Positions 29,962 through 36,367 of a stretch of DNA of 49,386 nucleotides are shown here, piece after piece. Numbering within the stretch: the first letter of the stretch is position 1; the number at the start of each line of letters is the position of its first letter. This stretch comes from a virus: positions 1 to 49,386 of IMG/VR virus record IMGVR_UViG_3300049629_000880; one strand, given 5' to 3'. The translations under genes were made by a program, and so were the position numbers. Below the pieces are notes generated by a model. That model saw nothing but the letters and a program-made list of their open reading frames with translations. It searched no databases and was not told the DNA's origin.

Positions 29962-30159
29962 CTAGAGGCGGATTAGTGATAGGTATGTATAGTAAAACTT
30001 AGCGAGCCCCCCTGCCTCCCTATAAACATAGAAGCTATGGTATAAATTACCATCACTTAGTATAGACTGGCTAGTAATAGGCACAGGCCCGCTCCATTCA
30101 TGATACGAAGCCCATTTAACATTACGCGGAGCCCAACCGTTAGAATTAATTATCTTCAT
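29962..30159 (-). CDS. array unit, 65 residues
   Basis: MKIINSNGWAPRNVKWASYH, WSGPVPITSQSILSDGNLYH, GGLAKFYYTYLSLIRL. The last ten residues are the IPITNPPLV module read in the wrong frame. Confidence 0.6.
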   Translation of the reverse strand: MKIINSNGWAPRNVKWASYHEWSGPVPITSQSILSDGNLYHSFYVYREAGGLAKFYYTYLSLIRL

Positions 30160-30331
30160 GGAAATAACCATCCTTATTCAGAAAGTGATATATCACTGAT
30201 GCTCCCAATCTATAATAAAACCAGGCGAAAAATACAAATAAGCCGTTTGCATTAATAAGCAGATCAGTAATAAGTATAGGTATATTTGACTTATTATGCG
30301 GGGCCCAATTATTACAATTAATTATCTTCAT
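30146..30331 (-). CDS. array unit, 61 residues
   Basis: MKIINCNNWAPHNKSNIPIL, ITDLLINANGLFVFFAWFYY, RLGASVIYHFLNKDGYFHED. Intact, with a short middle module. Confidence 0.65.
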   Translation of the reverse strand: MKIINCNNWAPHNKSNIPILITDLLINANGLFVFFAWFYYRLGASVIYHFLNKDGYFHEDN

Positions 30332-30530
30332 CTAGAAAGTTATACAACACTACTCCCGCTAGTCTATTGTAAAACCTGGCGGGCCCTCCACTATGATAAA
30401 AATAGAAGTTATAGAATAACTTATTATTATCTGCTATTAGAGGGACAGCAGTAGGTACAGATGCCCCCCATCCAGACGGAGCCCATTTAATATTACGCGG
30501 AGCCCAACCATTACAATTAATCTTCTTCAT
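30318..30530 (-). CDS. array unit, 70 residues
   Basis: MKKINCNGWAPRNIKWAPSG, WGASVPTAVPLIADNNKLFY, SGGPARFYNRLAGVVLYNFL, DEDN. Intact; the ending lacks the final YF.EDD. Confidence 0.65.
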   Translation of the reverse strand: MKKINCNGWAPRNIKWAPSGWGASVPTAVPLIADNNKLFYNFYFYHSGGPARFYNRLAGVVLYNFLDEDN

Positions 30531-30717
30531 AGAAATAATGGTAGGTTATAGTAGGCTCAGATAGGTTATAGTAAACCCAAGCGACTCCTCTGACATAAAA
30601 GTTATCGTATAAACTAATATGGTTTGCTATCAACGGGTTAGTAATAGGTATAGGTGTGGCGCCCCACTCATACCGACTAATACGAGGAGCCCAACCATTA
30701 CAATTAATCATCTTCAT
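30517..30717 (-). CDS. array unit, 66 residues
   Basis: MKMINCNGWAPRISRYEWGA, TPIPITNPLIANHISLYDNF, VAWVYYNLSEPTITYHYFYE. Sister of the unit at 29628-29840. Confidence 0.65.
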   Translation of the reverse strand: MKMINCNGWAPRISRYEWGATPIPITNPLIANHISLYDNFYVRGVAWVYYNLSEPTITYHYFYEED

Positions 30718-30922
30718 AGAGGTCCTCATCCAAAATGTTATATGATACTACTCTTTCCAGTATATAATAAAACAGCACCTCATCATAAAGGCTATAGTAT
30801 AAATTATCAACGCTCGCTAGAAGCGGATCAGTAATAGGTATCGGTATACTCAACTTATTATGTGAAGTCCAACAATCGCTATTACTACAAGGAGCCCAAT
30901 CGTTACAATTAATCATCTTCAT
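30704..30922 (-). CDS. array unit, 72 residues
   Basis: MKMINCNDWAPCSNSDCWTS, HNKLSIPIPITDPLLASVDN, LYYSLYDEVLFYYILERVVS, NILDEDLYEDD. Combines HNKL and IPIPITDP modules. Confidence 0.65.
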   Translation of the reverse strand: MKMINCNDWAPCSNSDCWTSHNKLSIPIPITDPLLASVDNLYYSLYDEVLFYYILERVVSYNILDEDLYEDD

Positions 30923-31067
30923 CGAAATAATTGTCCTTATCTAGAAAGTGATATATCACTGATGCCAGTATATAATAAAACATAGCGAGCCCCCAATAAA
31001 CTTTAATAGGCATAGATAGATTTAACTTATGACGTGGGACCCATTTGTTACTATCAACTATCTTCAT
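30909..31067 (-). CDS. array unit, 52 residues
   Basis: MKIVDSNKWVPRHKLNLSMP, IKVYWGLAMFYYILASVIYH, FLDKDNYFDEDD. Intact; overlaps both neighbours by 14 bases. Confidence 0.6.
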   Translation of the reverse strand: MKIVDSNKWVPRHKLNLSMPIKVYWGLAMFYYILASVIYHFLDKDNYFDEDD

Positions 31068-31290
31068 AGAAATTGTCCTCAGCTAACAGTGTCAGTTTAT
31101 AATAAAACAACATGATAGAAACATAAAACTTGTCTAATTCAGGTAGATAGATCGAGAGACTCGCGCTCACGCTTTCATAGTGATAATCATAGAAGTTATA
31201 GTAGAAACTATCCCCGTTTGCTAAAACCGGCGGGTTAGCAGCAGGTATATTTAACTCATTACGTGAAGGCCAGTTGTTAATAATCTTCAT
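31054..31290 (-). CDS. array unit, 78 residues
   Basis: MKIINNWPSRNELNIPAANP, LANGDSFYYNFYDYHYESVS, YLPELDKFYVSIMLFYYKLT, EDNFYEDS. Carries in one frame the modules that are split between two genes at 29023-29297. Confidence 0.65.
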   Translation of the reverse strand: MKIINNWPSRNELNIPAANPPVLANGDSFYYNFYDYHYESVSASLSIYLPELDKFYVSIMLFYYKLTLLAEDNFYEDS

Positions 31291-31519
31291 CGAAATAATC
31301 GCTCTCACCTAAAATGCTATATATTAAACTTCCTGCCAGTCTATCGTAAAACTTGGCGGGCCCCCCAGCATAATAAACGTAGAAGCTATGGTATAAAGTA
31401 TCACCGTTTGCTAAAATTGGCAGGTTAGTAACAGGTATAGGTGCGGCCCATAAATAATGATTATGGGGCGCCCATTCCTCATTATGGGGTGCCCAATAGT
31501 TTGTATTAATCTCTTTCAT
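31277..31519 (-). CDS. array unit, 80 residues, first of the array
   Basis: MKEINTNYWAPHNEEWAPHN has a duplicated WAPHN motif. It is followed by AAPIPVTNLPILANGDTLYH, AGGPAKFYDRLAGSLIYSIL and a DYFDEDY ending. Its start overlaps the stop of the 137-residue gene by 14 bases, so array translation may be coupled to that gene. Confidence 0.68.
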   Translation of the reverse strand: MKEINTNYWAPHNEEWAPHNHYLWAAPIPVTNLPILANGDTLYHSFYVYYAGGPAKFYDRLAGSLIYSILGESDYFDEDY

Positions 31520-32243: not shown

Positions 32244-32425
32244 TTCATCTTTCCCTTAGATTAACAATTAGGTGTGAACTACTCTCAACTCTGTTGAGAG
32301 CTTCCTATTTCACGGGGGATTGCCTCAAGACGGACTTACGCCCAACTTTTTTACATCCCCTCTATAGGCAGTATCGCTAGTTCCTAACGACAATTAATTG
32401 ATGAAAGATTCTACATCACAGTAGT
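32244..32425. other. 182-base intergenic region with an 8-bp perfect hairpin
   Basis: CTCTCAAC-TCT-GTTGAGAG near 32282-32300 is a perfect stem with a three-base loop. It lies downstream of the helicase operon on the minus strand, but no T run follows on that strand. It may be a processing site, weak terminator or transposon end remnant. No gene seen. Confidence 0.4.
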
Positions 32426-33885: not shown

Positions 33886-34282
33886 CTAATCTCCGTATAG
33901 TCCTAATTGTTTTACTCCATCGGTTCATCTCGCACTCGAGGTAGCTAATCAGCTCGATCCGCGCGGACTTCAAATGCTTATGACTATGAGGAGTACTAAC
34001 ATCACACCGCTCAATAACTGATAGGTGTCCCCTCTGTCTTACTAGATAGTTACCATAACCTGCCACACTGGCGGGCTTGATAGCGAGGGCTAGGCGAATA
34101 CTGGTCTTGTAATCTGCGCGACCCTTCTTCAAGTAGTTGAGTAATCTACTCCGCTGCGTCATAAAACTTAGACTAGTCCGATTATCATACGCCACGGCCG
34201 CGAGATAATCAGTCACACCTATATAAGAATCGGGGCCCTTATATATAACGTAGTACCACGGCCTATTATCTAGTATTGACAT
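33827..34282 (-). CDS. hypothetical protein
   Basis: 151 residues, basic, starting at an ATG that overlaps the kinase stop. Contains KKGRADYKTSIRLALAIKPA and a His-rich patch (STPHSHKHLKSARIE). The last 19 codons overlap the helicase start. Basic character suggests nucleic-acid contact. No family recognised. Confidence 0.65.
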   Translation of the reverse strand: MSILDNRPWYYVIYKGPDSYIGVTDYLAAVAYDNRTSLSFMTQRSRLLNYLKKGRADYKTSIRLALAIKPASVAGYGNYLVRQRGHLSVIERCDVSTPHSHKHLKSARIELISYLECEMNRWSKTIRTIRRLDADNIQRPLPDATGPGREW

Positions 34283-34853
34283 AAATCTTAAGCAATCTCT
34301 CTAGTGCCTTCTTCAAGTCTGATACTCTGCGGTAGTCATTAACTATGTCTATATAATGAACGCCCGCCCCATTAAGGCGAGCCAGACGGTCTTTAATAGC
34401 CTGATAGTTAACATCACTACTCAGTACCTGCTCAGACGAGCGGCTTATATTGATTACTATACAACATCTATTAATCAATGTAGATAGCATACTCTCTATT
34501 ACCTCTACCTCCTCTAGGTTGCGTAGGGACAATAGAAGAGTAGGTATACCCTTGCTGATATGGCGCCGTATCTCAGTCCGCATCATGCGACTAGAGAAGT
34601 AGGGGTCGTTCTCTCTCATGAAGTGATAGAGGTTAACCATAAACTGATTCATGGTTATATTCATACCATTGGGCGTATACTCCTTGTATTCTGTTGTATC
34701 AAGGGCCCCCTCTGGCAATTCATAGTACTTCTCTGTGAAGCGCTTCCACGGGGCTATAGGATGTATCTCTTCAACCCCCAGTAACTCAGATAAACACTTA
34801 GAGGCTTCAGTCTTACCTGAGCCACTCAGACCATGAATAATAATAAAGAACAT
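34266..34853 (-). CDS. P-loop nucleotide kinase (dNMP-kinase-like)
   Basis: 195 residues. IIHGLSGSGKTEASKCLSEL is a kinase-type P-loop at the very N-terminus. HPIAPWKRFTEKYYELPEGA and SSRMMRTEIRRHISKGIPT recall phage deoxynucleoside monophosphate kinases, which supply dNTP precursors. ISRSSEQVLSSDVNYQAI resembles a lid region. The exact substrate is not readable; a guanylate/thymidylate kinase relative is most likely. Confidence 0.72.
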   Translation of the reverse strand: MFFIIIHGLSGSGKTEASKCLSELLGVEEIHPIAPWKRFTEKYYELPEGALDTTEYKEYTPNGMNITMNQFMVNLYHFMRENDPYFSSRMMRTEIRRHISKGIPTLLLSLRNLEEVEVIESMLSTLINRCCIVINISRSSEQVLSSDVNYQAIKDRLARLNGAGVHYIDIVNDYRRVSDLKKALERLLKIYVNTR

Positions 34854-34874: not shown

Positions 34875-34903
34875 TTGACAATTTTAGAAGTCTCTGATAG
34901 AAT
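34875..34903 (+). promoter_or_regulatory. sigma-70-type promoter for the tRNA-like RNA
   Basis: TTGACA at 34875-34880, a 17-base spacer and TAGAAT at 34898-34903. A start about seven bases downstream would be at 34910, exactly the first base of the tRNA-like structure. It points rightward, against the surrounding genes. Confidence 0.65.
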
Positions 34904-34909
34904 TGAAGT

Positions 34910-35107
34910 GCTAGAGTAGCTTGGTAGCTAAAGGCTGAAACGGAGCCTTCAACCGAAAAGGGACTTAATGCAAAAAATACCTTTGTTTTTTGTTTCAAAA
35001 CTGAAATTTGCGAATCCACCGAACTTGGCAAAGATTGAGTGAGGGAAGGGCGTTTCGTCAGGAGTAAATTTAATTAAGTTTTGCGGGTTCAATTCCCGTC
35101 TCTAGTA
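34910..35107 (+). ncRNA. tRNA-like RNA, about 198 nt
   Basis: GCTAGAG (34910-34916) pairs with CTCTAGT (35100-35106) as a 7-bp acceptor-like stem with one G-U pair, followed by a discriminator-like A. TA and a TAGCT-TGGT-AGCTA arm follow the 5' strand, like U8/A9 and a short D arm. AAGGCT-GAAACGG-AGCCTT (6 bp, 7-base loop) follows. At the 3' side GCGGG-TTCAATT-CCCGT is a good T arm directly abutting the acceptor, as in tRNA. About 115 nt separate the second hairpin from the T arm. No T precedes the would-be anticodon, so it is not an ordinary tRNA. An ORF of 24 codons (ATG at 34967, AAGGGA upstream) lies inside. Confidence 0.5.
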
Positions 35108-35174
35108 TCTGTGGTCAAAAAATACATTCCCTCACAATACCCTGAAAAGATTTATTGTGTCAATTCCTATGGCT

Positions 35175-35211
35175 ATGTCTTTCCCCGATGTAAACCATTG
35201 GGGAAAGACAT
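35175..35211. other. 12-bp perfect hairpin
   Basis: ATGTCTTTCCCC and GGGGAAAGACAT enclose a 13-base loop. It lies between the tRNA-like RNA and the convergent HTH gene. Neither side has a strong T run, so a terminator role is uncertain. Confidence 0.5.
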
Positions 35212-35242
35212 GGCTATAATTAGTTTTGCCTGAGAGTATTAT

Positions 35243-35494
35243 TCAGTGACAGTGTAGATACATACATGATGTACCAATCCAGCTAATAGTAGTTAAGCTA
35301 ACGTCGTAAATTTCTGCAATTTCTTTATTGGTAAAGGTTTTACCAGATGTTTCAGTAGATTCAATTAAAGTGGGAATAATGTATGACTTAGCAAAAAACT
35401 TTTGATCATCATTTAATCCATTAAGAGTTACTGAATTTCTTAGCATTTTATTTGTCCTGAGTGTAATTTGTTTTTTGTTGAGACGCTCTTTCAA
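35243..35494 (-). CDS. small HTH protein of the A+T-rich island
   Basis: Up to 83 residues; MLRNSVTLNGLNDDQKFFAK (ATG about 35443) may be the true start, giving 67. KTFTNKEIAEIYDVSLTTIS is a helix-turn-helix segment. The end is His/Cys-containing (SCMYLHCH). It may have been truncated, since HTH proteins rarely stop so soon after the recognition helix. It overlaps the next gene by 47 bases if the first start is used. Confidence 0.55.
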   Translation of the reverse strand: MKERLNKKQITLRTNKMLRNSVTLNGLNDDQKFFAKSYIIPTLIESTETSGKTFTNKEIAEIYDVSLTTISWIGTSCMYLHCH

Positions 35495-35762
35495 TTTCTC
35501 TAGCTAGGTAGCCAATATGAAACGATTGAATACTAGGGCAATCAGTAACTATTTGACGGATTAGCTTCAAAGGATTCTTGCCTTCCCATTTCCCCACAAA
35601 TTCACCTTTAGGGGTTAGCTGACTGACTGTGATATTGTTTCCATCCGTTTCTACTAAAAAGTTATCAGTAGGGTCGCTGTAAGATTGAATCTCTTGATAT
35701 TGGTATTGATTATTTGCTGTTCCGATGATTAATCGATTAGGTTTGTAGATTGGGTTAAACAT
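35448..35762 (-). CDS. hypothetical cyanobacterial-type protein
   Basis: 104 residues from ATG. NFLVETDGNNITVSQLTPKG, then WEGKNPLKLIRQIVTDCPSI and HIGYLAREIERASQQ, loosely recall the cyanobacterial DUF4346 pattern (DP.G.F.I ... H..YLG.EL..A). That is a weak memory-based resemblance. A+T-rich codons. Start overlaps the stop of the 47-residue gene by 8 bases. Confidence 0.6.
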   Translation of the reverse strand: MFNPIYKPNRLIIGTANNQYQYQEIQSYSDPTDNFLVETDGNNITVSQLTPKGEFVGKWEGKNPLKLIRQIVTDCPSIQSFHIGYLAREIERASQQKTNYTQDK

Positions 35763-35898
35763 TAGCTTTTCTTTTTTTTGGGGGATTTGATTGCTTCCAA
35801 GTTTCTATTTCTTTAAGAAATAAATCAGATTTAGGCTTCCAGTTCTCTATTTCTTCTAGAAGCAAATCTAGTTTTGCGTTAATTTCTTCAAGAGTCAT
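35755..35898 (-). CDS. 47-residue coiled-coil peptide
   Basis: ATG at 35898. MTLEEINAKLDLLLEEIENW and a second ENW/ETW helix (KSDLFLKEIETWKQSN), with a basic end KKRKANV. Two near-repeats of the L.EIE(N/T)WK motif suggest a short coiled coil. It overlaps the next ATG by 8 bases. Function unknown. Confidence 0.5.
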   Translation of the reverse strand: MTLEEINAKLDLLLEEIENWKPKSDLFLKEIETWKQSNPPKKRKANV

Positions 35899-35951
35899 AA
35901 TTAGCCTTGTCTTTATTTTGTTTAAGAGGTTTTATTTTGGCTAGTGTCTGT

Positions 35952-36257
35952 TCAATTGATTTTTCCTGTTTCAAAATAAAATTGATATTCCTCTTTGTAA
36001 ATGTCATCAACAAATACATGATATACCAATCCAGCTAATTGATAGGTTCCAACATATTTTGCTTTTTTTCTAATAAAATAACTACCAGTATAATAAGTCA
36101 AAATATTAAAAGGTCTCTTAGGCTCTTCTGTTTCTACTAATGCCCAAAGTGTAGGAGTATTATCCTGTAACTGAACACATAATACTTCTGCATTTAACGG
36201 CATTTCAATCTTTTGGCAAGGATGATCAGTAATAGGGTACTTCCAGATGGTCTTCAT
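35952..36257 (-). CDS. DUF7352-like protein
   Basis: 101 residues. MKTIWKYPITDHPCQKIEMP, then NAEVLCVQLQDNTPTLWALV and KYVGTYQLAGLVYHVFVDD, match the pattern I recall for DUF7352 (KYP.....Q.I.MP..A.IL.VQ.Q...P.LWA.V...YIGT.Q..GLV.HVF). Such small proteins are common on plasmids and phages; their function is unknown. A+T-rich. A tRNA-Tyr gene lies just upstream. Confidence 0.7.
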   Translation of the reverse strand: MKTIWKYPITDHPCQKIEMPLNAEVLCVQLQDNTPTLWALVETEEPKRPFNILTYYTGSYFIRKKAKYVGTYQLAGLVYHVFVDDIYKEEYQFYFETGKIN

Positions 36258-36286
36258 TGGTTATTTCAATCCTTATTTATTTTAAT

Positions 36287-36367
36287 GGGTTAGGTTGGGT
36301 TTGCACCAGCGTGGAATTACTCTACAGATTTACAGTCTGTCGCCTTCGACTACTCGGCCACTAACCC
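36287..36367 (-). tRNA. tRNA-Tyr (GTA)
   Basis: Read on the minus strand: acceptor GGGTTAG/CTAACCC, D arm containing GGCCGAGTAGTCGAAGGC, anticodon arm ACAGA-CTGTAAA-TCTGT with anticodon GTA, a long class II variable arm, and T arm GCTGG-TGCAAAC-CCAAC with one C-A mismatch and G in place of the second T of the loop. No encoded CCA. The T-arm changes leave open a degenerate copy. It lies inside the A+T-rich island. Confidence 0.82.

Follow-up and report, generated by a model that had tools for sequence, protein, structure and literature searches.

Bacterial Y RNAs (YrlA) carry tRNA-like arms within a longer noncoding RNA, and some of them are found in phages. Transfer-messenger RNA (tmRNA, ssrA), in which G3:U70 is the alanine identity pair, combines tRNA-like ends and a T arm with a D-loop GG that lacks an ordinary D arm and with a short internal reading frame that ends in a stop codon; it can be phage-borne, as in phage Bxz1 and in the TLD-only RNA of mycobacteriophage DS6A. 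In cyanobacterial tRNA genes that bear group I introns, the tRNA arms are separated by an insert, and the msr-msd RNAs of retrons have pairing ends and a length of ≈200 nt. Nearly all tmRNAs carry a G1:C72 terminal pair (PMC4131195), and a TLD-only molecule resembling that of DS6A inhibits the host tmRNA (PMC4131195; PMC11915505). Accessory tRNA-shaped RNAs also serve phages as decoys or supplements: the tRNA-Tyr of T5/T6 relieves the tRNA-cleaving defence mounted by Septu or retron-Eco7 (PMC13096335). RNA anti-CRISPRs are likewise on record (PMC10651486).

The window analysed here, a stretch of 49,386 nucleotides, covers part of the genome of a Microcystis phage of the Ma-LMM01-like (Fukuivirus) kind; its nearest records are Ma-LMM01, MaMV-DC and MaMV-DH01, among others. 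Between 27 and 43 kb, it is collinear with the Fukuivirus records, with ≈90% identity over 62–73% of the length. It contains a tRNA-like RNA of ≈198 nt on the plus strand (34,910–35,107, from acceptor position 1 to the discriminator A). The adjoining gene on the opposite strand (34,266–34,853) has a product that matches deoxynucleoside monophosphate kinases (PHROG 139), and farther downstream, the minus strand carries a tRNA-Tyr gene (36,286–36,367). The RNA is also present in Ma-LMM01, between gp162 and that tRNA-Tyr gene at ≈144.86–145.06 kb of NC_008562, where it bears no annotation; the best-studied phages of Microcystis contain a conserved RNA gene that had gone unnoticed. The interval between the RNA and tRNA-Tyr holds extra small genes in the window (35,240–36,280) and only ≈50 bases in Ma-LMM01, which suggests a variable cargo site.

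The ends of the RNA pair as those of a tRNA do. The acceptor-like stem joins GCTAGAG (34,910–34,916) to CTCTAGT (35,100–35,106) over 7 bp, is followed by the discriminator A at 35,107, and adjoins the 5-bp stem of a canonical T arm, GCGGG-TTCAATT-CCCGT (35,083–35,099), just as the original prediction had proposed. The T arm, which is conserved, is the sole match to its pattern in the window, where 0.06 would be expected under a Markov model, and only 0.09% of the 7-mers in the window can pair fully with GCTAGAG. Two further predicted elements are present in the sequence: a short D-like arm with a D-loop GG, AGCT-TGGT-AGCT (34,918–34,929), invariant apart from a change of C-G to U-G in L009, and an anticodon-arm-like hairpin, AAGGCT-GAAACGG-AGCCTT (34,931–34,949), with a constant stem and a variable loop of 7–9 nt (GAAACGG or GTGAAACGG) that lacks the U33 of an anticodon loop. 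The GG and TTC motifs of a tRNA elbow are present together with the acceptor and T stems. CCA is not encoded, the bases at this point being TATC in the window and TACC in most relatives.

An inserted domain (34,963–35,079) occupies the position of the variable arm in the structures given by minimum free energy (MFE) and by RNAalifold. Its closing stem, ACTTAAT/ATTAAGT (34,963–34,969 with 35,073–35,079), is invariant. Within it lies an A/U hairpin, CAAAAAA...TTTTTTG (34,971–34,992), both strands of which are shortened together in the LMM01-like phages, from A6/T6 to A5/T5. An alternative pairing inside the insert, CAAAACT (34,996–35,002) with AGTTTTG, is nearly universal and no less compatible with the data than the competing minimum-energy stem. 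By folding energy alone, the RNA is only mildly better than shuffled sequences (z = −2.1). An acceptor stem extended to 9 bp (GTGCTAGAG/CTCTAGTAC), in which the third pair from the end would be a G.U, was rejected, since its outer G changes to A without a change in the partner.

Upstream of the RNA is a sigma-70 type promoter (34,875–34,903), with the −35 box TTGACA (34,875–34,880), a 17-base spacer and the −10 box TAGAAT (34,898–34,903). It had been called perfect; the boxes and their spacing are indeed there and are conserved, but the −10 hexamer is imperfect, so that the promoter matches the consensus at 11 of 12 positions. Nearly all relatives keep the boxes: TTGACA and TAnnAT are constant, and the variation is in the spacer and in the inner −10 bases, which take several forms. 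GCTAGAG begins six bases past TAGAAT. Ma-LMM01 reportedly uses host SigA-like promoters in every phase, with starts 6–8 bases downstream (PMC5780444), which places the likely start of the RNA at or near acceptor position 1. The host sigma-70 polymerase would thus initiate at that position or within two bases of it; acceptor position 1 and the base two upstream vary only from purine to purine. No terminator comes directly after the RNA, and a few bases separate its tRNA-like end from the next start codon, so cleavage by the host enzymes that process tRNAs probably generates the 3′ end. A terminator-like hairpin in the window, 60 bases beyond the RNA (35,170–35,216), is not common to most relatives. 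The mature RNA is expected to be a discrete species of 198–201 nt, from 5′ GCTAGAG to 3′ ...CTCTAGTA(CCA), in which the tRNA-like ends may have a dual role, setting the mature 3′ end and serving recognition.

The RNA was found in ≈45 IMG/VR contigs and in nine published phage records. IMG/VR was scanned for exact patterns taken from several parts of the RNA, and all of these scans converged on the same ≈45 contigs. From IMG/VR and the published phages, we obtained 36 distinct sequences of the region from 50 matched loci. These retain a nearly invariant RNA as the sequence on both flanks diverges or is replaced, and we take this conservation as decisive that the RNA is real; it also supports the proposal that the RNA is tRNA-like, has its own promoter and measures about 198 nt. 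For 13 phages of a second group, described below, the mean identity was 97% for the RNA, 92% for the upstream primase gene and 93% for the downstream 67-codon ORF (ORF67).

In an alignment of 30 sequences, the cloverleaf with its insert was paired in 99.5% of cells, and its acceptor, D, anticodon-like, closing and T helices were also recovered by RNAalifold. Loops carry distinct substitutions at about twice the density of helices, and nine of the 11 helix substitutions keep the pair, compared to 7.5 expected (p = 0.07, with two rows that have a rewritten 3′ strand excluded). Acceptor pair 6–67 occurs as A-U, G.U and G-C, pair 1–72 as G.U or A-U (unpaired in two rows), and the third pair is U-A throughout, except for U.G in two aberrant rows. 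Covariation counts did not exceed those in shuffled alignments, because the family varies too little to give a signal. One clade (L062, L067, L063 and L058) has CTGGGGACT as its 3′ acceptor strand, and the end pairing is gone while the T arm is retained. Such a loss had been named beforehand as a finding that would speak against the RNA; it occurs in this clade and not elsewhere, and reflects either decay or a loss of 3′ processing there.

Searches with a degenerate tag-codon pattern recovered this RNA family and no further members, and the extra matches to a relaxed D-arm/T-arm pattern were ordinary tRNA arrays only (L125–L127). The plasmid search gave one match, attributable to chance, and pattern and primase searches of the genome-contig collection gave none, so that no host copy was found there. 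A truncated copy of 70 bases, comprising the promoter and the 5′ part of the RNA, is present at the usual site in L055 (4,770–4,840) and also in L059, L060 and L064. In these contigs, a terminator-like hairpin follows the truncated copy, and a full copy lies 1.2 kb downstream, past inserted small genes.

Searches of the kind suggested with the original prediction did not assign the RNA to a known class: ARAGORN made no call, and no Rfam family reached its gathering score, the tRNA model giving a sub-threshold 15.8 bits (E = 2.1) for a T-arm fragment only. This score is what speaks for a tRNA that is decaying or bears an intron, or for arms brought together by chance; we consider any of these highly improbable. 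The RNA is conserved across two phage groups and more strongly than its neighbouring genes, and its helix substitutions tend to preserve pairing, which argues against decay and chance. Compared to the intron-bearing tRNAs, the insert lies outside the anticodon loop, the loop itself is of variable length and does not decode, and the Rfam searches gave no match to a group I or group II intron core. Two of the identities first put forward, a decayed tRNA and an intron-bearing one, are thus rejected, and a new tRNA mimic is the one that we prefer. A retron was also considered and rejected, as there is no reverse transcriptase in the 11 carrier records searched and the T arm is canonical, unlike in msr-msd RNA. 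In contrast to YrlA, it is the termini of the RNA themselves that form the tRNA-like ends, and there is no Rfam match.

The remaining identity put forward, a minimal tmRNA-like molecule, bears on the reading frame of 24 codons inside the insert. This ORF exists (34,968–35,042), but is not conserved as a whole and was rejected as a conserved gene: in the LMM01-like phages, the hairpin is shorter by an A and a T, which puts the upstream part of the ORF out of frame, and in several others its ATG is replaced by ATA. What is conserved is the last 11 codons on the plus strand, GCG AAT CCA CCG AAC TTG GCA AAG ATT GAG TGA (35,010–35,042; ANPPNLAKIE*), a possible tag. All four distinct substitutions in this frame are synonymous or stop-preserving (GCG>GCT, CCG>CCA, TTG>TTA and TGA>TAA), compared to none of four and one of four in the other two frames and one of six in the region downstream. 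For random changes, this gives p = 0.0023, which rises to 0.065 when the changed bases, all of them G, are held fixed; we therefore regard the synonymous-only change as suggestive of a tag frame, not as proof.

With such a frame, the RNA might be a strongly reduced and divergent phage tmRNA, the tRNA-like half of which would enter stalled ribosomes. The tag ANPPNLAKIE would then be read from the resume codon GCG at 35,010, and the ribosome released without the usual hydrophobic degradation signal being added. The synonymous change downstream of a frame broken by indels and ATG>ATA is consistent with this, as are the retained T arm and D-loop GG. Likewise, an A at −4 of the GCG is like A86 in E. 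coli tmRNA (PMC2481249), and the candidate tag has 10 residues, the commonest tag length (PMC11915505). We nevertheless consider a tmRNA unlikely. The third acceptor pair is U-A instead of G3:U70, the first is G.U or A-U instead of G1:C72, and the candidate tag lacks an Ala-Ala end. The RNA keeps its anticodon-arm-like hairpin and has the insert in the position of the variable arm, and the base at −5 is A, which is frame-shifting in E. coli. No Rfam tmRNA model matched the RNA at E values up to 10, cyano_tmRNA giving matches only below the cut-off and elsewhere, and no SmpB is encoded in the phage records searched. As for a pseudoknot around the tag, the candidate is a single helix, the CAAAACT/AGTTTTG pairing, in competition with the MFE stem. 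Because of the missing G3:U70 and G:C first pair, the retained hairpin and the lack of a tmRNA model match, we do not file the RNA as a tmRNA; that part of the original prediction keeps a low probability, in view of the synonymous-only change in the last 11 codons. It is quite unlikely, in our estimation, that the RNA represents a new trans-translating architecture, namely a phage tmRNA-like molecule of <200 nt that keeps its cloverleaf, carries a 10-residue tag in the variable arm and is charged by a rule other than the usual alanine one. If so, a tag without the usual degradation signal would allow the phage to rescue ribosomes with its own proteins spared.

The RNA has two genomic homes. 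In the LMM01-like myoviruses, it lies beside the kinase gene in divergent orientation; two LMM01-like contigs (L107 and L116) are without it. The other home is an unrelated tailed phage of ≈80–90 kb (contigs up to 88–90 kb) that encodes a DUF3987 primase/helicase, a ParB-like protein and a large tail protein. Microcystis is established as the host for the named phages only. In this second group, the RNA is located between the stop codon of the primase gene and the start of ORF67, and the promoter and RNA form a clean insert of ≈260 bp. The filled site, present in 19 of the 35 relatives, is laid out as AAGTACCT, promoter and RNA, and TAGTACCTATGATTGG, with a direct repeat, (A)GTACCT, at both ends of the unit; the remaining 16 have the clean empty site GGATATAAGTACCTAATGATTGG. 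The presence of the RNA changes eight times on the primase tree, at least seven of them on supported branches, and sister phages <2% apart can differ in it. The 67-aa ORF itself (L068:6930–7400 and relatives) is conserved and is coupled to the primase gene by a TAATG overlap where the RNA is absent; it had no Pfam or PHROG match.

The insertion splits the TAATG overlap precisely, which could indicate a cis-acting processing element, a fold that RNase P and RNase Z would excise from the primase transcript, thereby separating or regulating the primase and the 67-aa ORF. We consider this improbable, since the RNA has its own conserved promoter and persists in the LMM01-like phages, in which ORF67 is incomplete or missing and the adjacent kinase gene is oppositely oriented. 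Conservation of the inserted domain would also be unneeded for such a role.

Upstream of the promoter, the LMM01-like copies still have the CCT of the donor site, and downstream of the RNA they have a remnant of ORF67. In the window, the remnant has 40 codons (35,111–35,233, plus strand; MVKKYIPSQYPEKIYCVNSYGYVFPRCKPLG... compared to MIGQYIPSRYPEKVYRVNSYGQIFPRCKPLG...); it is truncated and drifting, with 18 codons left in Ma-LMM01 and none in the L021/L044 group. These flanks indicate that the LMM01-like phages acquired the unit from the second group, and since they keep the RNA and lose the linked ORF, the RNA is the selected part. The empty sites, the direct repeat and the repeated gain and loss would also be expected of a mobile element that is selfish and non-autonomous and whose sequence is maintained solely for transposition. 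To this we assign little probability: there is a single insertion site in the donor group, no independent insertions at several sites were found, no terminal inverted repeats were seen apart from the acceptor stem, no reverse transcriptase is present in the 11 records searched, and the entire interior is conserved. Moreover, the home to which it moved carries the donor flanks, so the unit was transferred by recombination and not by its own ends.

We favour, with about half of our confidence, the reading that the region is an accessory gene for a structured, trans-acting RNA that mimics tRNA and has spread sideways among unrelated Microcystis phages. The conserved promoter and RNA amid diverging flanks support this reading, and the preserved structure, the horizontal transfer and the empty sites can be read from the sequences themselves. 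Its occurrence in two unrelated phage types, the proportion of empty sites and the number of gains or losses point to an optional, anti-host gene, for which the TLD-only RNA of DS6A, the phage tRNA-Tyr and the RNA anti-CRISPRs are precedents. Several observations count against this reading: covariation does not rise above that of shuffled alignments, given how little the sequences vary; many close relatives lack the RNA, which makes it dispensable; and the acceptor pairing is destroyed in one clade that keeps the rest. We infer that the RNA is processed, acts in trans and has a host target. The D-loop GG and the T loop would form a tRNA elbow, the ≈120-base domain would stand in for the variable arm, and the non-decoding hairpin for the anticodon arm. 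The folded RNA would most likely bind a host factor that reads the tRNA shape and divert it during infection; the candidates are a defence nuclease that targets tRNAs and the SmpB/tmRNA rescue system. The RNA resembles the phage tRNA decoys in its tRNA shape and its accessory nature, and in LMM01-like genomes it is close to the phage gene for tRNA-Tyr; unlike the decoys, it is 198 nt long, has no anticodon and is not a functional tRNA. The RNA gene moves between unrelated phages of a single host, one noted for its large number of defence genes, and offers a direct entry point to RNA-based counter-defence, or to the hijacking of ribosome rescue, in bloom-forming cyanobacteria.

Other features of the window are of separate interest. 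On the minus strand, 29,962–31,519 contains tandem short ORFs of ≈50–85 aa in which a motif like MKxINCNxWAPxN...PIPIT recurs, a family with many paralogous copies adjacent to each other. A segment at 32,263–32,394 is 92.7% identical to a piece annotated as transposase in Microcystis phage Mic1. The long perfect hairpin beyond the RNA, also present in L014, originated within the ORF67 remnant, and between L014 and the window its loop is inverted (GATGTAAACCATT compared to AATGGTTTACATC), as expected of template switching.
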